From contig NZ_CP083582.1 of NCBI RefSeq assembly GCF_020091585.1, forward strand, positions 3,720,001-3,784,000: a stretch of 64,000 nucleotides of DNA. Reading direction: 5' to 3'. The first letter of the stretch is position 1; the number at the start of each line of letters is the position of its first letter. Source of the DNA: Kovacikia minuta CCNUW1 (lineage in GTDB: Bacteria; Cyanobacteriota; Cyanobacteriia; Leptolyngbyales; Leptolyngbyaceae). This document shows, piece by piece, positions 12,276 to 63,912 of this stretch. The notes beneath the pieces are model-generated. The model saw only the letters and a list, made by a program, of their open reading frames with translations. It had not been told where the DNA came from and did no database searches. The translations under genes and the position numbers were made by a program.

Positions 12276-14739
12276 TCAGCCTAAGTCTACGCCCAGGAAG
12301 CGATCGAGGAAGCGCGATCGCCAGACTGCCCGTAAAATCAAGCACCATTCTAGCGCTACAAGACTCAGGAAGAGAAAATCCCAACTACTCAGGGGTGCCA
12401 GTTCGAAAAATCGTCGAAAGACGGGAACTGACAGAATGATCCCATACCCCACCAGCAGGCTCAGTGCCATTAGGGTATAGCGCCAGTCGTGGGTTAGCGG
12501 CTCCGCAGCAACCCAAACCCGCGTTGGTGGTTTGAGAAAGGGAATCAGAAGTAACTGACATAAAATCAGAATCGTGACCAGGGCAGTGCGTGGTTCGCGA
12601 TAATCTACCTGGCTGAATTCCGAACCTGGCGCTAAATCCAGGATTGCCCCAACCACATAGAGCAAATAGACGAGCAACGCAACCAGCGTTAACGTCAGGG
12701 CGGCTGGAATTGTAAAGCGCAACAAGGACTGCACCATTCCCTGTTGTCTGGGATTCCTCCCTGGTTTTGCCCAAATTGGTAGAAAAATAACTGGAAATCC
12801 GACGCCAAATAGGGAAACGAGCGCGCTGTGTTTATTGACCAGGGGAAAACTGTCGGTTACCATTGCGCTGGAGAAAATAAGTAGCGTAATGCAAATAATC
12901 CGCACAATAAATAGTGCCAGCGCATCGCGAATCCCGTTGCGGATTCGTTGCCCTTCTAAGAAGGTATGGGGTAAGGAACCAAAGGAATCTTGTAACAACA
13001 CAATATCTGCCACACTCCTGGTTGCCCGACTGCCACTTTCCATGGCGATCGCCAGATTTGCCTGCTTCAGCGAAAGGACATCGTTAACCCCATCCCCAAT
13101 CATGGCGACATAGTGCCCCTGCCGCCGCAGCGTTTTCACTAATCTGGCTTTTTGTTCCGGGGTAATGCGTCCAAAGACCGTACAAGAAATCGCCGCCTGG
13201 ATGAACTGAGCCTCATCCATGACGGCCAATTCAGCCCCAGAAACCAGGGCAATATCCGCTCCCAATCCTGCCTGCTGTGCCAGGGCTGCAACCGTTTGGG
13301 GATTATCCCCAGAAATAATTTTGATGCTAATTCCCGCTTCGGCAAATCCATGTAATGTTTCGCGTGCCTGGGGGCGGAGTTGGTCACTGAATTGGAGGAT
13401 GCCTAAGGGAGTGAGGCTAAGGGGTAGGATTGGGTGGTCGGTTGCATCCAGGCTATTCAGGACACTGCTATGGGCAAGTAAAAGCACCCGCAATCCTTGC
13501 TCCACCCCTGCCTGAATTTCAGTTGCCATCTCCTGGGATAGGGTCAGGGCTTTGGTCAGTTTTTCGGGCGCACCCAAAACGTACACCCCCGGATGGTTCC
13601 CATCCGCAAGGGTAACGGCACTCCACTGGCGGGCGGAGGAAAAGGGAACTTCTGCTATGACCGATCGCGTCTCCCCTGTAAAAGCAGCCAGAATGGCATC
13701 CACTCGTCCGGTTATGGGCAGTGGTATTCACCGCAAAGTCCCCCAGGATTTGTCCTAAGGTTTCTTCCGAAATTCCCACGGGATAAATCGTTTGCAGGTT
13801 GAGTTGATTGGTGGTCAGGGTTCCCGTTTTGTCGAGACAGAGAGTATCCACATTACTGAGCGATTCCACTGCATTTGCCTGCTGAATCAGCACATTTTCG
13901 CCCAGCATGCGTACCGCACCCATCCCATAGGCAAGGGTAATCGCGACCAGCAACCCGGCGGGAACCAGTCCTGCAATTACGGCTGCCCGCTGCACAATAT
14001 CGGCAAGGGGCAGCGATCGACTCAAAAAGCTAATCGCCACCAGAATCCAGAGAAAGCAGGCAAGCAGCAGAATAATCCGAATCACCAGATTGATTTCCTG
14101 CTGGAGTGGGGTATAGACCTGACGGAAAGCGCGGGCACCCGTTACGAGCTTGTAGGCAACGGTTTCCATTCCCACCTTGGTGGCTTCAAAGTAACCTCCA
14201 CCACTGACACAGAACGTTCCAGAATAGACCGAATCGCCTGCCAGTTTGGGGATCATATCCGACTCCCCTGTTAACAGGGATTCGTCCACATCAATCCGTC
14301 CTTCGCCCACAACTGTGCCATCGACCAGAATCTGATCCCCCGATCGCACTGCCAGAATGTCACCCAACACAATTTCTCCGGGTGAGGTCTGGACTTCCCG
14401 TCCATCCCGCACGATCGTGGCGATCGGGCGATTCAACAGGGCAATTTCATCCAGTTTACGTTTTGCCCAAATCTCCTGGGCAATATTCATCAGAATGCCG
14501 CTCACAATCACCACAACCACCAGCACCGCGTCGCTGTAGCGGTGAAGCACCAGCATTACCGCACTGATGGCAAAGAAAACGGCATTAATAAAGGTGAACA
14601 GATTCTCTTGCAGAATCCGACGGTAGGAACGACTCGACTGAAGTTTGACGTTATTACCCTGACCTGCCGCCCGACGCTGGCTGGCTTCCTGTTCGGTCAG
14701 TCCCTTGGAGAAGTCAGTTGGATAAACGTCCTGAGTCAT
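12276..14739 (-). pseudogene. cation P-type ATPase (CtpE-like), one frameshift
   Basis: After correcting one frame break the product is about 820 residues, a normal length for an E1-E2 pump. The first part (13519-14739) carries the actuator motif LLTGESDM and the phosphorylation motif CLDKTGTLT. The second part (12276-13703) carries the hinge MIGDGVNDVLSLKQANLA and the C-terminal membrane helices. The N-terminal signature GLTEQEASQRRAAGQGN resembles the CtpE group, for which Ca2+ transport has been reported in mycobacteria; specificity here is inference. The frame break lies at about 13703-13716 (after NTTAHNR), where removing one base joins the two parts. It may be an assembly error rather than true decay, since both halves look fully conserved. 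Confidence 0.85.
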
Positions 14740-15550: not shown

Positions 15551-16027
15551 TTACAAGCCAAGGGTCGTCTTAAGTACATTCAAAGTTGCGGCTTCTTTCT
15601 TGCTCACCTTGTCGCCAATCCCAAATAAACCTTCCCCGGCGGCGTGGGCAACGCTATTGGCGCAACCATAGGTAAACTCTTTGTATTCCTGAATTTCGGC
15701 AGGAGTGGCTTTCTTTTCCAAAATTGCCAATGCTTTACGAATCAAGCTCACTGCTGATTCCAAAATTGCATCGGGAGAAACCTCTGTCTGAGGCTCTTCT
15801 TTTTCCTGGGGTTCTTTTCCGTTCGCATATTTGGCAAACAATGTCTGGATTAATTGGCTATCGGGGTGTTTTTCAACAGCTCCCGTAATTTCTTTGCCCA
15901 GAGTGGCAATTTCGATGCCCATTGAGACGATCGCGAACTCACAAAAAACGACCGCATGCCCGCTCATGATGACGGCTTGTCTCAAAGTCTCTAGCTCTGT
16001 TTCCGTGTATTCTGGCTGGGTAGTCAT
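15551..16027 (-). CDS. conserved hypothetical protein, helical
   Basis: This 158-residue soluble protein appears mostly alpha-helical, with an acidic Lys/Glu/Gln-rich middle (KEPQEKEEPQTEVS) separating two helical blocks. It has no signal peptide or membrane helix, and I do not recognise the family. The C-terminal block has SVAHAAGEGLFGIGDKVSKKEAAT, and two cysteines are present (FCEF, GCAN). It stands alone between two repeat-rich spacers, divergent from the histidine kinase. Confidence 0.65.
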   Translation of the reverse strand: MTTQPEYTETELETLRQAVIMSGHAVVFCEFAIVSMGIEIATLGKEITGAVEKHPDSQLIQTLFAKYANGKEPQEKEEPQTEVSPDAILESAVSLIRKALAILEKKATPAEIQEYKEFTYGCANSVAHAAGEGLFGIGDKVSKKEAATLNVLKTTLGL

Positions 16028-16370: not shown

Positions 16371-19214
16371 ATGAACTTTAATCAGCCGAGAGGCTGCCCT
16401 CATTTTGATCACTTGAGGCATCAGATCGAGTCACTTGATGCAACTGAAAAGTTACATCAACAGATCCGACAGCTCAATGGCGAGTTAGGGGATGCGAAGG
16501 AAAAATTGAGCCGAAAAGAACGGGATGTGGCTTATTATCAGAGCGTGTTGAATCATTTGCCCGAATTAGTGTGTCGATTTTTGGCAGATGGAACGCTAAC
16601 ATTTGTAAATCAGGCTTATTGCACCTATTTTGGCAGACTGCCAGAGGAATTAATTGGCAGGAGCTTTCTGGAACTGATTCCAGAAGCCGATCGCTCGGTG
16701 CCGCTCCAGCAGATTGCGACTTTGCTGCAAACAAAGGGCAGCAGCAGCAGTGAGCATCAGGTCATCACTGCGGATGGTTCTCTCTGTTGGCAAGAGTGGA
16801 CGGATTATGCCCTCTGTGATGCGAACGGGAACGTAGTTGAATTTCAGGCGATCGGGCGGGAAATTAGCGATCGTAAACAGGCGGAAGCGCAATTATGCCA
16901 AAGTGAAGCCAAATTGCAAGAAGCTCAGCGAGTTGCCCATGTGGGAAGTTGGGAACTGGATCTTAAGACTCAGGAAATTACCCTCTCAGAAGAGGCGTTT
17001 CATATTTTTGGTTTTGCTCCCCGCCAGCCAGAACCCTCCTGCCAGGAACATTTGCAAAGAATCCATCCCGACGATCGGGAACTGATTCAAACCCTGGTTA
17101 AACAGATAGCGGAGACGGGTCAACCCTACAAAGTCGATTTTCGCATCTTGAACCCAGATGGGTCGGTTCGGCATATCGAAGGTAGGGGCGAAGCCAGCCT
17201 GAATCCCCAGGGACAAATTACACAGCTGTTTGGCACTCTATTAGACATTACAGACCGCAAACTCCTGGAAGAACAGTTGCGCTGGCAGGCAGAACGGGAG
17301 CGCATTCTGCGTCAAATTACAACCCACATCCGCCAGTCTCTAAACATCGACACCATCTTAAAAACCACGGTTTCGGAGGTGCAGCGATCGCTTCAAGCTG
17401 ACCGGGTGCTGATTTATCGGTTTCAACCTGACTGGAGTGGTGTTGTCCTGGTGGAGTCGGTTGCAGAACCCTGGATAGCCGTTCAGGGAACCAAATTAAG
17501 AGATCCCTGCTTTGCCGAAAGGTACATTGAGCCTTATCGCCAGGGACGCCTTCATGTGGTTGCAGATGTGCATCATGCCAATCTGAATCCCTGTTATGTT
17601 GAACTTCTCACGACCTTTGGAGTCAAAGCGAATCTGGTTGTTCCTATCCTGCAAGAAAATCGGAACTCCCAGCGAACTGAAAGTACCCACTCTACACCTA
17701 TCCTATGGGGGCTGCTGATTGTCCATCAGTGTAGTGGACGCCGACAGTGGCAGGATGCGGAAGTTGATTTATTAAGGCAACTGGCGGTTCAGGTGGGTAT
17801 TGCGGTCGAACAGGCAGAGTTTCACCGTCAAGTCCAACGATTCAACGCTGAGTTAGAACGGCAAGTCCAGGCTCGCACGATCGAACTGCAACTGGCTTAT
17901 GAGTTTGAGTCCACTTTGAAGCGCATCACCGATAAAGTGCGGGATTCCTTGGATGAGAGCCAGATTTTGCAAAGTGCAGTAGAGGAACTGGCAAAGGGAT
18001 TAGGGATCAGTTGTTGCAATGCCGCATTATTCGATTTAGAACAGGGCACCTCCACCATCTGCTACGAATACACCACCTTCATTTCCCCGTTTCAAAGGCG
18101 GGTATCCCGCATGGCAGATTTTCCAGAAATCTATCAGCAACTGTTGCAGGGCGAGTATTTTCAGTTTTGTTCCCTGATCCCCAATCCGGTGCGGGGAGAA
18201 GCTGCCATGTTTTGCTGTCCCATTCTCGACAACCAAGGTGTGTTAGGCGACCTGTGGCTGATTAACCATTCCTACTCTGTCTTTAGTGAGCAGGACATTC
18301 GCCTGGTGCAACAGGTGGCAAATCAATGTGCGATCGCCCTGCGCCAATCTCGCCTTTACCAAACAGCCCAGGCACAGGTGCAAGAACTGGAACGGTTGAA
18401 TCAACTCAAAGATGATTTTTTGAGTACCGTTTCCCATGAACTGCGCACTCCCATGACCAACATCAAAATGGCAACCCAAATGTTGGAAATTGGGCTAAAA
18501 CAGTCAGGCGAATTAGGGGCAAAGCCTAACTCGATCAATCGTTATTTCCAAATTCTGAAAGATGAATGTCAGCGAGAAATAAGTTTGATCAGTGATTTGC
18601 TCAATTTAACCCGTTTAGAAACTGGAGGCGAACCTCTGTCACCAATCGCGGTTGATTTTCCCCGTTGGCTCACAGAACTGATTAAACCCTTCGCTGAAAG
18701 GGCACACAGCCAGCAACAGCAATTAGAGATAGATATTCCCAGAGGATTCCCGACCTTAACCACCGATGTTTCCTATTTGGAACGAATCCTATTGGAGTTG
18801 CTTAACAATGCCTGTAAATATACCCCTGCGGGTGGAGTAATTACCGTGGCAGCAAGGTCTGTGGGAAAAAAGGATGAAGGATTAAGGATAAAGGATAAAA
18901 CGGGGGCTAACTCATCCTTTATCCTTGATTATTTATCCTTTCAAATTTCTGTCACCAACACAGGCATAGAGATTCCAGCCCAGGAGCGAGATCGCATTTT
19001 TGACAAGTTCTACCGCATTCCTAACAACGACCCCTGGAAACACGGTGGCACAGGTCTGGGATTAGCCCTGGTGAAGCGATTGATAGAACAACTTGGTGGC
19101 AAGATTCAGGTGGTAGGCGCTCAAGGGCAGACAACATTTATCGTGGAACTACCACCAGGAGTTGAACAGCCATCAGTTTTACAGAATCGTTCAGATAGGG
19201 ATTTGACGGACTGA
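16371..19214 (+). CDS. PAS-PAS-GAF-GAF sensor histidine kinase with DXCF-type cyanobacteriochrome GAF
   Basis: The 947-residue kinase carries, in order: a helical start; PAS (about 50-165, VLNHLPELVCRFLADGTLTF); a second PAS (about 190-300, VAHVGSWELD); GAF1 (about 310-480); GAF2 (about 515-665); HisKA with H-box STVSHELRTP (His689); and HATPase ending DRIFDKFYRI and GTGLGLAL. GAF1 is the notable part. It has DPCF (Cys380) and NPCYVELL (Cys408), 28 residues apart, followed by VKANLVVPIL and LWGLLIVHQC. That is the two-cysteine layout of DXCF cyanobacteriochromes, which bind a bilin; the usual Cys-His is Cys-Tyr here. It has no membrane segment and no receiver, so its response regulator is elsewhere. 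A ~20-residue repeat-derived insert (KKDEGLRIKDK...) interrupts the ATPase domain between conserved boxes. Confidence 0.9.
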   Translation: MNFNQPRGCPHFDHLRHQIESLDATEKLHQQIRQLNGELGDAKEKLSRKERDVAYYQSVLNHLPELVCRFLADGTLTFVNQAYCTYFGRLPEELIGRSFLELIPEADRSVPLQQIATLLQTKGSSSSEHQVITADGSLCWQEWTDYALCDANGNVVEFQAIGREISDRKQAEAQLCQSEAKLQEAQRVAHVGSWELDLKTQEITLSEEAFHIFGFAPRQPEPSCQEHLQRIHPDDRELIQTLVKQIAETGQPYKVDFRILNPDGSVRHIEGRGEASLNPQGQITQLFGTLLDITDRKLLEEQLRWQAERERILRQITTHIRQSLNIDTILKTTVSEVQRSLQADRVLIYRFQPDWSGVVLVESVAEPWIAVQGTKLRDPCFAERYIEPYRQGRLHVVADVHHANLNPCYVELLTTFGVKANLVVPILQENRNSQRTESTHSTPILWGLLIVHQCSGRRQWQDAEVDLLRQLAVQVGIAVEQAEFHRQVQRFNAELERQVQARTIELQLAYEFESTLKRITDKVRDSLDESQILQSAVEELAKGLGISCCNAALFDLEQGTSTICYEYTTFISPFQRRVSRMADFPEIYQQLLQGEYFQFCSLIPNPVRGEAAMFCCPILDNQGVLGDLWLINHSYSVFSEQDIRLVQQVANQCAIALRQSRLYQTAQAQVQELERLNQLKDDFLSTVSHELRTPMTNIKMATQMLEIGLKQSGELGAKPNSINRYFQILKDECQREISLISDLLNLTRLETGGEPLSPIAVDFPRWLTELIKPFAERAHSQQQQLEIDIPRGFPTLTTDVSYLERILLELLNNACKYTPAGGVITVAARSVGKKDEGLRIKDKTGANSSFILDYLSFQISVTNTGIEIPAQERDRIFDKFYRIPNNDPWKHGGTGLGLALVKRLIEQLGGKIQVVGAQGQTTFIVELPPGVEQPSVLQNRSDRDLTD
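18865..18945. repeat. fold-back simple repeat inside the kinase ATPase domain
   Basis: AAGGATAAA/GGATTAA units are followed 20 bases later by their complement TTTATCCTTGATTATTTATC. The frame is kept and the peptide falls in a loop of the HATPase domain. Confidence 0.7.
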
Positions 19215-19218
19215 TATT

Positions 19219-21496
19219 CTAACGAACCACCTTACTCATATAACTGCCCCAAACCTGGGCAGCCTGGGCACTACTTCCAGAGGTGGGAGCGTTATCGTCA
19301 TTGCCGAGCCAGATGCCTGTCACCAAACCATCGGGAATAAAGCCAATAAACCATAAATCCCGGTTGTCATTGGTAGTGCCCGTTTTGCCTACCGCTCCGG
19401 GGACGATCGCCGCTGCCGACCCCGTGCCACCACTCACCACACCCCGCAGCAATTCGGTCATGACGTTTGCCACATCGGATTCCAGAACGGTCTGATTCAA
19501 CTCGCGATCGGGGGTTGCCGGGTAAATAATGCGACAGGTCTTAAAGTTATTGCGGTCTTTGCATTCTCCGCCGTCCAGAATGCGCCGAATGGCGTGCGGG
19601 CGGTTTCGCACCCCCCGATTTGCCAGCACACTGAAAGCGCCCGTCATTTCCAGCGGGGTTGCCTCACTTTGCCCCAGAACCAGACCGGGGACCAGGTTCA
19701 ATTTCGACTGAATCCCCATCCGACGAGCCATACTCGCGACCCTCTCCAGTCCAATTTCCTGGGCAACTCGCAGCGCAATCACGTTTTCTGACAGGGCAAT
19801 GCCGTTGTACATATCCATTGCACCACCCCCAGAGCGGCACCCCTCAAAAAACTGTCCATCCCAGGTCAGGGGGGCGCAGGAGTAGGTGTTGCCAGGGGAA
19901 ATCCCCTGTTCGATCGCTGCCGTATAGGCAAACACCTTAAAGGTAGAACCGGGTTGGCGGTAGGCTTGGTTGGCACGATTAAACTGGCTTTTTTTGTAAT
20001 CTGTTCCACCTACCAGCGCGACAATTTCCCCAGTTTTAGAGTCAACTGTTACCAGTGCCCCTTGAGAAAAACCAGCACTTGCACCTGTGGTATTGACGGC
20101 ATCCCGGAGAGAAGTTTCTGCGGCAGATTGGGCGGCAAGGTCAACCCCTGTTTCAACAATAAAATTGCCCTCCTCCGCCAGTTGCTCCCCCAGGAGTTGC
20201 CGCAGCTCGTCTAGCACGTAGCTGTAATAGTAGGGGGCACGCATACTTTCCAGCTCTTCGCGTGCCTTCGGATTCACCTCAATCCGCGATCGTCGCGCTT
20301 TCTGAGCTTCATCCTGGCTCACCATGCCCATTTCGACCATGCGGTTGAGAACCCGATCACGCAGTTCGATCGCTTTCTGATAATCCCGCACGGGATTAAA
20401 ACTGTTGGGACCGGGAAGAATCCCTGCCAGGGTCGCCGCTTCCGAAAGTGTCAGATCCTTAGCAGACTTACCCAGATAAAACTGCGCCGCATCCTCAAAG
20501 CCGTAGGTACCACTGCCCATATAGACCCGGTTCAGGTAGGTCAGCAGCAGAAAATCTTTGCTATAGACTGTTTCCAGTTTGAGGGCAACTGCTGCCTCCC
20601 GCAATTTTCGTCCTGCTGAGTCTGCTGTTCCGACATAATCCCGAAACAGGCTACGAGCAAAGCTGTTGGGTCAGGGTGCTGCCCCCCTCCTGAATTTTGC
20701 CCCCCCGAACATTGGTGACCAGTGCCCGCAGGGTGCCGATCGGGTCAACCCCTAAATGCCAGTAATAACGGCTATCTTCAGACGCGATCACCGCTTTAGG
20801 CAAGTAGGGAGAATATTCCCGCAAGCTCTTAAATTCGGTATGGGTACGGTTGGTTACAGGATTCAAAGGGGTTTGTTCATCCCCGGCATAGACGACGATC
20901 GGCCCCTGAACGGAAACAGGCAAAGGACGTACCGAGAATTTTTGCCATTCAATTAGGACGCCTAAAACCGCCAGTGCAGTCACCCCACCAACCCCGTACA
21001 TACTGTAGCGAAATGCCTGCACGTACCACGGCGGCGGATCGACAAACTTGATCCGCACAGAAGCCGCCAGTTCAGACGGACCCAGGGTATAGGTAGCACC
21101 GTGGCGCAATAACTCCTTGCGAACCCGCCGTTTTCCTCGATAGACGCCATTCGTAGAATTTTCATCTTTAAGGGTAAATGGCGCACGGAAGAGATAGCTC
21201 AGCTTCCCCTGGGGGCGATTATCCCGATTCAGCGATAGATGCACCTGGCTCACTACTGGATTACGCACCACAATGTCACAGGACTGGGAACTACGCCCAA
21301 TCAGATAGCGATCGCCCAATAGCGGGTAGACATCAGCCTTCTCCTTATCGGCATCCTGTACCCACAGCTCTGGCACTCTGGCATCTGGTTTGAGCTTCAG
21401 CTTAGAAAAATTAATCTTTGCCTGAACAGTCTGAACTGCTTGGGTAATAGCACCCATGAAAGTTTGAGACTTACGGGGAGGCTGGGGCGAACTCAT
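19219..21496 (-). pseudogene. FHA domain-class A penicillin-binding protein (PBP1A), one frameshift
   Basis: Frame-corrected, this encodes about 758 residues. It starts with an FHA domain (about 55-140; LLGDRYLIGRSSQSCDI, ENSTNGVYR), a phosphothreonine-binding module. A membrane helix follows (VGGVTALAVLGVLIEW), then a glycosyltransferase-51 domain (ASEDSRYYWHLGVDP, GGSTLTQQL), and a transpeptidase with SxxK (GSTFKVFAY), SxN (LSENVIAL) and KTG (GKTGTTND). It polymerises and crosslinks peptidoglycan outside the plasma membrane, with the FHA domain inside the cell. The break is at 20659-20661, where three A (T in sense) replace the two needed to continue QQL into ARSLFRDYVG. All catalytic motifs are intact, so an assembly error is plausible. 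Confidence 0.88.
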
Positions 21497-60771: not shown

Positions 60772-62357
60772 ATGCAGAGTCATTCAACTTACCCAACCAG
60801 AACCTGTTCCACCAGAAACCTTCCTCTGGGGCGTTTCAACCTCAGGTTACCAGAGCGAAGGGGGGTATAACGGACCCCATGATCCCAAGAACAACTGGTT
60901 TTTCGATGAACACCGAGGCAGTGTCATGCGAACGGGCACTGCTGCTGAATTTTGGACCCGTTACGAAGAAGATTTTCGAGCCTGTCAAACGATCGGGCTA
61001 AATGCCTTCCGGTTAGGGCTGGAGTGGGCAAGAATTCAACCTTCCGCGCACACCGGAGCTGCGTCTGCACCTGCGTTTGACCATGCTGCACTGGATGCCT
61101 ACGCCGATCGCATTGCTGCCTGCCGTCAGCATGGATTAGAACCGATTGTGACCCTGCACCATTTCACCCATCCAGCCTGGCTAGGGATGGATGCTTGGCT
61201 ATCAGAAGAGACGGTTGATTGTTTTGTCGAATATGTTCGGGTTGCCGTGACCCAAATTAACCGCCGATTGACGGATCACTACCAGCTTCCCCCGATCCAC
61301 TGGTATATCACGGTCAATGAACCCAACATGCTCGTGCTAAATACTTACCTCAGCCGCCAGTTTCCAGCGGGTTCCTCCTGGGGGGTGAGTGCGGTGTTAC
61401 ATGCCTACAGCTACATGCTTGCTGCCCACATCCGGGCTTACAACTGTATTCACGACATCTACGAAGCCGAAGGCTGGACGACGCCTCGTGTTTCGCTGAA
61501 TACCTACTGTAGCGACCACTATTGGTCCGAAAAAGTGATCTGGGATTTGCTCAGTCTGCGCCAGCGAGAAGTCAAGCCGACCCAGTTGGAAAGTTATACC
61601 GATGCGAATGCGCAGCAACTAAAACTCGCTCTGTGCGATGCCAATCTTCCCTTCAGTCGGGATTTGCCCTATCAAATTGGGCAACTCGTTTACCGATTCA
61701 GTAATTGGTTCTGCCCGTCGCAATTTCGATACTTGGCGGCTCAACTATTTTTTTCAAGAACTCGAAGCCTCTCCCCGCTCCCAGGTGTTTGATTTTGTTG
61801 CGATCGATTACTATGACCCTTTCACCGCGCATATTTTGCGAATTCCCTCATTCTCAGATTTTGAATTCAAAACAAAGGATTTCCGGGGTTGGCTAATGAG
61901 CGGGATTACCAGCAAATGGTGGGATTGGCGCTGCTTACCAGAAGGACTTCACTTCTTCTGCAAGTTCTACGCTGAAACTCTGTGCACTCGTTCCCAGGGA
62001 GAACCCTCCTGTCCTATTTTGATTGCAGAGAATGGGATGGCATTACGCCGCAAACCAGACAACAGCATCGCAACGTTTCGGGGCGACCAACTGCGTCGGA
62101 GTGAATTTCTAAAAGCACATATTCAGCAAGTCCAGCGGTTACTGAAAGAAGAAGTTCCACTGGTAGGTTATATGCACTGGTCTCTTACAGATAACTACGA
62201 GTGGGGATCTTATACTCCACGATTTGGCTTGTTTGCAATTGATTTTGCTCAAGGAACCGATCGCCTGATCGAAGACCATCTTGGCGATCGCCCCTCGGAA
62301 ACCTATGCCCAACTCATTCAGAAAGTACGTAACCTTCAACCTTCCAGCACGTTCTAA
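60772..62357 (+). pseudogene. GH1 family glycoside hydrolase, two frameshifts
   Basis: The corrected product is about 527 residues. It opens MQSHSTY at 60772; dropping one C at 60792-60794 leads to PETFLWGVSTSGYQSEGGYN. The acid/base glutamate is in TVNEPN (about 61315) and the nucleophile in LIAENGMA (about 62025), both present. A second extra base at 61709-61710 separates VYRFSNW from ARRNFDTWRLNYFF; the rest runs to HWSLTDNYEWGS and the stop at 62355. Family 1 enzymes cleave beta-glucosides or galactosides; plant SFR2 of this family remodels galactolipids. The adjacent MGDG-synthase-like gene makes a lipid substrate conceivable, which is inference. Confidence 0.82.
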
Positions 62358-62428: not shown

Positions 62429-63912
62429 CTACCGTGTACACACAAATCGAGCCTAGACTAAGGTAGCTCCTCAAAACTCTCATTGATTATGGATAACCCC
62501 ATTCTCATTCATGCAGCACAAATCAAAGGAACTGCATTTGGTGACCCTCGTTTAGTCAAAAGGGGGCGGCACTGTATGAAGCAATGCTTCAGCACCAATC
62601 GGTAAACATTCGCCAAATCAGCCAAAATCGAGCTGAACAGATTGGCTACTATCGTTTCTTGGAGAATGAAAACGTGACGATATCCGAGTTAGTGCGGAGT
62701 GTTGCTGACCAGTGCCAGGCGCAGGTGGAAGGATTGCATGTGTTATCGATTAGTGATAGCAGTGAGGTTAACTTGCAGTCCCATGCAGGGCGGTTAAAGC
62801 CGCAAGGACTTGGGGTCGTTGGCAACGACCGAGATGTTGGGTTTTTCATTCATCCAACCCTGGTGCTGAATGCCGAGACTGGCTTTCCATTAGGGTTAAG
62901 TACCATTCATTTGTGGAGTCGTGACATCGACCATAGCGATAAACATCAACGCGACTATCAACACCTGCCGATTGAGGAAAAGGAATCCTACAAATGGCTG
63001 CGATCGGCTGAAGGCAGCAACCGATGTTTGAGGGCTGGAGGAGCGAGGTTAATCACTCATATCGGCGACCGTGAAAGCGACCTGTATGAAGAATGGGCGA
63101 CGGTTCCAGACGCTCAAACCCATTTATTAATCAGGGTGTGTCAAAATCGTCGTCTGTGGCATCAGTCGTTATCGCTCTATGACTACCTGACGATTCAACC
63201 CGTTCAGGGAAGTTACACCGTGCAAGTGGTAGAAGATCCCCGTCGAGGGCAAACTGCACGAGAGGCATTGCTAGTTGTGCGTGTGGCGAAGGTTGAGATC
63301 CGGCGACCCGACAACCTCAACGCTCACGACTATCCTCCCAGTGTGGGTCTCTACGCCGTAGAGGCACAGGAAGTCAACCCACCCCCTGGACAACAACCGA
63401 TTCATTGGCGACTGTTGACCACTCATGAAGTCGTTTGCTTAGAACAGGCACTCCAAGTCATTCAGTGGTACTGCTGGCGCTGGCGGATTGAACAACTGTT
63501 TGCCACCCTCAAACAGGCCGGACTCAATCTCGAAGCGACGCAACTGGAATCGGTAGATGCCATTCAACGCTTGACTGTGCTGGCGCTGTCGATTGCCGTG
63601 CGAGTCCTACAACTGGTGGAAGGGCGAGATAACCCTGAGTTATCTGCCTCTGTTGCCTTTAGCGATGAACAGCAGCAATGCCTCACTCAGCTAGAACCGA
63701 CGTTGCAAGGACACACTCAAAAACAGCAGAATCCTCATCCTCCCAGTTCTTTAGCTTGGGCAACCTGGTTAATTGCTCGCTTAGGAGGATGGTCGGGTTA
63801 TCGCTCCCAACGTCCCCCCGGAATGCCTACTCTAATTCATGGTTTGCGGCAGTTTGAGGCAATCTTCATCGGGTGGAAACTAGCTCAAGCCCCACTTGTG
63901 TGTACACGGTAG
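62429..63912 (+). mobile_element. IS4-family insertion sequence, 1,484 bp
   Basis: The ends are perfect 17-bp inverted repeats: CTACCGTGTACACACAA at 62429-62445, and its reverse complement at 63896-63912. An 11-bp direct duplication flanks it, within the 8-13 bp range of the IS4 family. It carries one transposase gene whose stop codon TAG is supplied by the last bases of the right inverted repeat. Complete ends, a perfect duplication and a host repeat that can be reassembled exactly all indicate a recent insertion. Confidence 0.93.
62489..63912 (+). pseudogene. IS4-family transposase, N-terminal frameshift
   Basis: The catalytic DDE residues are present: SISDSSEVNLQS (first Asp), THIGDRESDLYE (second Asp) and the IS4 signature Y-2-R-3-E-6-K in YCWRWRIEQLFATLK. 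The natural start is ATG at 62489 (MDNPILIHAAQIKGTAFGDP then RLVKRG). At the AAAAGGGGG run (62558-62566) one more G, or a -1 shift, is needed to continue as AALYEAMLQHQ, giving 474 residues. Without it only the part from ATG 62584 is translated, lacking the conserved N-terminus. It could be dead, a sequencing error, or frameshift-controlled. Confidence 0.87.

Follow-up and report, generated by a model that had tools for sequence, protein, structure and literature searches.

A GAF domain with two candidate bilin-binding cysteines, and with tyrosine instead of histidine directly after the anchoring one, raises the question of whether it can work as a photoswitch and whether the tyrosine is unusual. 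We analyzed such a domain (GAF1) in a sensor histidine kinase of Kovacikia minuta CCNUW1, encoded in a 64,000-nucleotide stretch of contig NZ_CP083582.1 (positions 3,720,001 to 3,784,000; referred to here as the window). The finding made in the initial annotation is real and was correctly read, and GAF1 is ordinary within the DXCF cyanobacteriochromes.

Architecture and surroundings of the kinase gene

The kinase gene is complete. A single open reading frame (16371..19214, +) encodes 947 residues, and its translation and Pfam matches give the order PAS-PAS-GAF-GAF-HisKA-HATPase. Two PAS domains (residues 55 to 170 and 203 to 289; 16533..17237, +; Pfam PAS_4, PAS, and PAS_3) precede GAF1 (residues 326 to 479; 17346..17807, +; Pfam GAF, E = 4.7e-32). 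GAF2 (residues 527 to 657; 17949..18341, +; Pfam GAF_2) contains neither the DXCF motif nor the canonical cysteine motif and is, by motif, not of the bilin-binding type. HisKA and HATPase_c, the latter with its N-, F-, and G-boxes, occupy 18408..19157 (+), and His689 (codon 18435) is the predicted phospho-acceptor on the basis of motif positions. Given the H-box histidine and the ATP-binding motifs, the protein belongs to the histidine kinases and looks intact. The best match in related genera was 72% identical across query residues 171 to 694. The genome yielded 115 GAF matches, and the kinase is thus one of many such sensors. No response-regulator gene was recognized by eye among the larger open frames of the window.

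Upstream of the kinase gene and divergent from it, 15551-16027 (-) encodes a 158-residue protein with no Pfam match. Downstream, a gene for an FHA-transglycosylase-transpeptidase (penicillin-binding protein) at 19219-21496 (-) lies in two frames with a break near 20604-20655, which divides its Transgly domain between the frames and looks like a frameshift or an assembly indel. A P-type ATPase gene (12276-14739, -) and a beta-glucosidase-like gene (60926-62357, +) each lie in two overlapping frames, around 13519-13703 and 61638-61792, respectively. That three housekeeping-type genes are interrupted within 64 kb points to assembly indel errors or to decay. The window ends with a transposase-like open frame (62584-63912, +).

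Cysteines, pocket, and classification of GAF1

The DPCF motif (residues 378 to 381; 17502..17513, +) places Cys380 (codon 17508-17510) at the position of TePixJ Cys494. By homology with TePixJ and Tlr0924, this residue is predicted to be the second cysteine, which adds to C10 of the bilin (PMC6955287, PMC4223177). Cys408 (codon 17592-17594), the equivalent of TePixJ Cys522, is the predicted canonical bilin anchor and is followed by Tyr409 (codon 17595-17597) and not by histidine (Cys408-Tyr409, 17592..17597, +). The two cysteines are 28 residues apart, as they are in the TePixJ crystal chain (3vv4; DPCF...ECHLNQ) and in Tlr0924. The residues, coordinates, and TePixJ-like spacing initially proposed were all correct when checked against the reading frame and the 3vv4 chain. 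A degenerate 12-base DPCF pattern matched once versus 0.43 matches expected; a lone match of this kind would be unremarkable, and the evidence is the whole GAF domain.

Five TePixJ pocket residues (D492, F495, R507, L527, and N535) are all kept in GAF1, as Asp378, Phe381, Arg393, Leu413, and Asn421. The departures from TePixJ are H523 to Tyr, Q526 to Leu, W499 to Tyr, H498 to Arg, and Q509 to His; Leu at 526 (97/166) and Tyr at 499 (87/166) are the commonest residues in the DXCF-type GAFs of our panel. The TePixJ GAF (4glq and 3vv4) thus resembles GAF1 in motif, spacing, pocket (D492, R507, L527, and N535), and fold, whereas it differs in overall sequence (38% identity), in having Cys-His and Gln at both 526 and 509, and in its chemotaxis transducer output.

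All of the best PDB sequence matches of GAF1 were bilin-binding GAF domains (E values down to 4e-50), headed by 6oap, RcaE, miRFP670nano, NpR6012g4, and TePixJ. An AlphaFold model built from 58 aligned GAFs (mean pLDDT, 86.4; pTM, 0.85) has the cyanobacteriochrome GAF fold, as judged by VIA structure alignment, with Z scores of 25.9 to 6ob8, 25.8 to AnPixJg2 (3w2z), and 22.8 to TePixJ (4glq; rmsd, 2.0 over 149 residues); the model was also compared by Foldseek. Pfam, PDB matches, model, and pocket residues agree with the earlier assignment of GAF1 as a probable bilin-binding GAF within a histidine kinase.

By overall identity, GAF1 is closer to the single-cysteine GAFs 6oap (53%) and miRFP670nano (51%) than to TePixJ (38%). 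The dual sensor histidine kinase 6oap/6ob8 is the best PDB match in both sequence and fold and, like the window protein, a histidine kinase; unlike GAF1, it has DQYF without a second cysteine, Cys-His, and a green-absorbing state according to the entry title. Membership of GAF1 in the red/green or green/red groups was considered and dropped on the basis of motifs. GAF1 has LRDPCF where extended red/green (XRG) cyanobacteriochromes have WXDXXL, and Cys-Tyr plus DPCF versus Cys-Leu and no second cysteine in the RcaE-type green/red members of the panel. GAF1 instead combines Asp-Xaa-Cys-Phe, which holds the second cysteine, with an anchor cysteine 28 residues downstream, i.e., the DXCF pattern.

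Phylogenetic placement had been named as a check. A tree of 54 GAFs was computed after removal of the two cysteine columns and the column after the canonical cysteine; in it, GAF1 lay among DXCF-type GAFs and its nearest rows were all DXCF-type, although its own branch was not resolved. It did not fall into any of the supported clades of other types, namely red/green (support, 100/100), green/red (99/93), and cysteine-less (98/96); AU tests that forced it into these clades were borderline (p = 0.067, 0.080, and 0.050, respectively). The tree alone is no more than suggestive, and the DXCF assignment is carried by the motif and the pocket residues.

The same data bear on the idea that GAF1 has lost bilin binding and is left with a purely structural or dimerization role. 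This genome, with its 115 GAF matches, holds several relatives that are devoid of the canonical cysteine, as this idea would allow, but in GAF1 both cysteines and the motif Asp are kept at pocket positions, and the cysteine-less GAFs form separate clades (AU p of 0.05). A loss of binding is therefore very improbable. A non-bilin GAF is likewise disfavored by the two cysteines and the tree, though with borderline AU p values.

Tyrosine after the anchor cysteine

The initial annotation presented the tyrosine as a replacement of the conserved histidine that could tune or block the photocycle. We sampled the class evenly, taking 116 cyanobacterial genomes, and searched them with DNA patterns for DxCF, 26 residues, CY (or CH), 10 residues, and AN. 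The Cys-Tyr pattern matched 99 times, in 59 genomes, and the Cys-His pattern 359 times, in 97 genomes; Cys-Tyr thus accounted for 99 of the 458 DXCF-type motifs (22%) and was present in 36/72 genera. A reversed control pattern produced one match in the first search and none listed in the second. Among the GAFs nearest GAF1, about half were Cys-Tyr (78 CY and 87 CH), in a panel that is biased to the query and to fetched CY loci. For 217 GAFs, the best tree requires no fewer than 42 changes of the CH/CY state, and ~8 to 10 changes in DXCF groups are forced by well-supported branches; with so many changes, the residue after the anchor cysteine has switched repeatedly.

Cys-Tyr also occurs in characterized photoswitches. 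One of the surveyed genomes (G051) encodes a PixJ GAF that shares 100% identity with the TePixJ crystal chain, and on this basis we take the genome to be that of Thermosynechococcus elongatus. It holds two DXCF Cys-Tyr loci. The first has Cys499 and Cys527-Tyr528, numbered from a GTG start that lines up with the orthologues' MEQLS starts; the bilin-linked residues of Tlr0924 (SesA) are Cys-499 and Cys-527 (PMC4223177). The second has DSCF and Cys-Tyr, with cysteines at 246 and 274. Orthologues in two other genomes (G114 and G108) have the architectures CBS-PAS-GAF-GGDEF (SesA-like) and GAF-GGDEF-EAL (SesB-like). We identify the two loci as Tlr0924/SesA and Tlr1999/SesB, the latter on account of its domain makeup and because it is listed among GAF proteins as a phosphodiesterase (PMC8846402). 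Both proteins are reported to be switched by light, SesA by blue and green and SesB by blue and teal (PMC5871770, PMC8846402; for Tlr0924, see also PMC4223177). Since they photoswitch with Cys-Tyr, the tyrosine is compatible with a dual-cysteine photocycle and does not block it. The genome counts and the two T. elongatus proteins rule out the tyrosine as a rarity.

Tuning by the tyrosine fared better. Nearly all red/green cyanobacteriochromes have Cys-His, and NpF2164g5, with a natural Cys-Tyr, is highly fluorescent; a His-to-Tyr change also increased fluorescence in a biliverdin-binding SPI1085g3 variant (PMC9378818) and, as H87Y, in the NpR3784-derived miRFP670nano, by stacking on the bilin (PMC6336887). 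Such a rise in fluorescence in the red/green group makes it plausible that Tyr409 has a tuning role, an idea that the literature already contains. These examples could be extended to the proposal that GAF1 binds bilin but that Tyr409 traps the chromophore, which would make the domain fluorescent or a very poor switch. NpF2164g5 and miRFP670nano do share with GAF1 the tyrosine after the anchoring cysteine; however, they are red/green or engineered single-cysteine proteins without a DXCF cysteine that are noted for fluorescence (PMC9378818, PMC6336887), and miRFP670nano also has N117H, which holds ring D. Tlr0924 and Tlr1999, in contrast, combine DXCF with Cys-Tyr and, according to published reports, photoconvert (PMC4223177, PMC5871770). 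Together with the frequency of Cys-Tyr among DXCF-type motifs, this makes trapping quite unlikely. A tyrosine at this place is not to be taken as evidence of a defective photocycle; the variant, treated in work on the red/green group as a rare, fluorescence-favoring exception, is widespread in dual-cysteine DXCF domains.

We scanned all alignment columns for association with residue 523 and then picked column 509, which covaried most strongly with Tyr523, followed by column 493. GAF1 has His395 at this pocket position (17553..17555, +; TePixJ column 509). In the alignment, His509 occurred in 22 Cys-Tyr versus 1 Cys-His GAFs. In the 116-genome draw, its frequency was roughly tenfold higher in Cys-Tyr loci (21/99, including 6 from one Thermosynechococcus-like genus, g45) than in Cys-His loci (7/359; Fisher p = 5.5e-10); counted by genus, the figures were 12/36 and 5/60 (p = 0.004). 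Tree-corrected independent pairs of His509 and Tyr523 numbered ~1.6 in the same direction and almost none in the opposite one, which was not significant, with too few informative pairs; for Arg498 and Tyr523, independent pairs on the tree were too few. Gln509 and Cys-His are found in the two closest kinases, which belong to a related genus (G131 and G015) and share 72% and 63% identity, respectively, with the window protein across the matched parts. Read off the two chains, column 509 holds F in AnPixJg2 3w2z and T in 5zoh, a variant of it that binds biliverdin and for which four changes were named crucial for biliverdin incorporation (PMC7504144).

As a modest lead, the histidine may have moved from the residue after the anchor cysteine, on the helix, to the neighboring strand. 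It is conceivable, but rather doubtful, that Cys-Tyr plus His509 is a recurrent alternative DXCF pocket that affects the color or stability of the photoproduct, with SesB and the window kinase as examples. The pairing of His395 and Tyr409 suggests point mutants with which the role of the histidine could be probed.

Predicted photocycle and bilin supply

Among characterized DXCF proteins, SesB is the closest to GAF1 by identity (49% by BLAST; ~53% aligned to SesB orthologues). Its GAF shares the DXCF cysteine, Cys-Tyr, the 28-residue spacing, and a GR-x-His-Val-Val strand with the same histidine; it differs in having DSCF and not DPCF, a GGDEF-EAL output (seen in the orthologue), and no PAS domain found. 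SesA shares DPCF, Cys527-Tyr528, and the spacing, whereas it is 40% identical, has Leu at the His395 position, and has the CBS-PAS-GAF-GGDEF architecture (seen in the orthologue). From the relationship to SesB, phycoviolobilin and a blue/teal-to-green photoswitch are predicted for GAF1, and we consider it very probable, judging from motifs and model, that GAF1 is a DXCF-type cyanobacteriochrome of this kind acting on a histidine kinase. The dual-cysteine, blue-absorbing dark state initially suggested likewise stands as the best prediction for a DXCF-type GAF in an intact kinase.

In such a cycle, Cys408 would bind ring A of phycocyanobilin, which GAF1 would isomerize to phycoviolobilin. In the dark 15Z form, Cys380 would add to C10 and give a blue-absorbing state; blue light would convert the bilin to 15E and break the Cys380 bond, and the resulting teal- or green-absorbing state would switch the attached kinase. 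Tyr409 would pack on the bilin and, with His395, tune the pocket without stopping the photocycle. DpxA of Fremyella diplosiphon, compared by description, is a cyanobacteriochrome with measured kinase activity and teal sensing (PMC4937213), although its photocycle is teal/yellow, unlike that predicted for GAF1.

The color call is uncertain, as some DXCF proteins keep phycocyanobilin or have photoproducts of other colors. GAF1 might attach bilin and photoconvert but keep phycocyanobilin, with an orange or red photoproduct instead of a teal or green one. In Tlr0924, the chromophore is a mix of phycocyanobilin and phycoviolobilin (PMC4223177), and orange photoproducts occur in some members of the DXCF group (PMC5578081). 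We hold this outcome to be a minor chance, however: Tlr1999/SesB is listed with phycoviolobilin (PMC8846402), and Leu413 sits at the Tyr/Leu color position, at which Leu is the blue-shifting state (PMC7504144).

The K. minuta genome contains three ferredoxin-dependent bilin reductase genes, and phycocyanobilin is thus very likely available. Two of the genes are adjacent (C1 6704389-6705861) and the third lies elsewhere, an arrangement like that of pebA-pebB plus pcyA, which, if true, would mean phycoerythrobilin synthesis.
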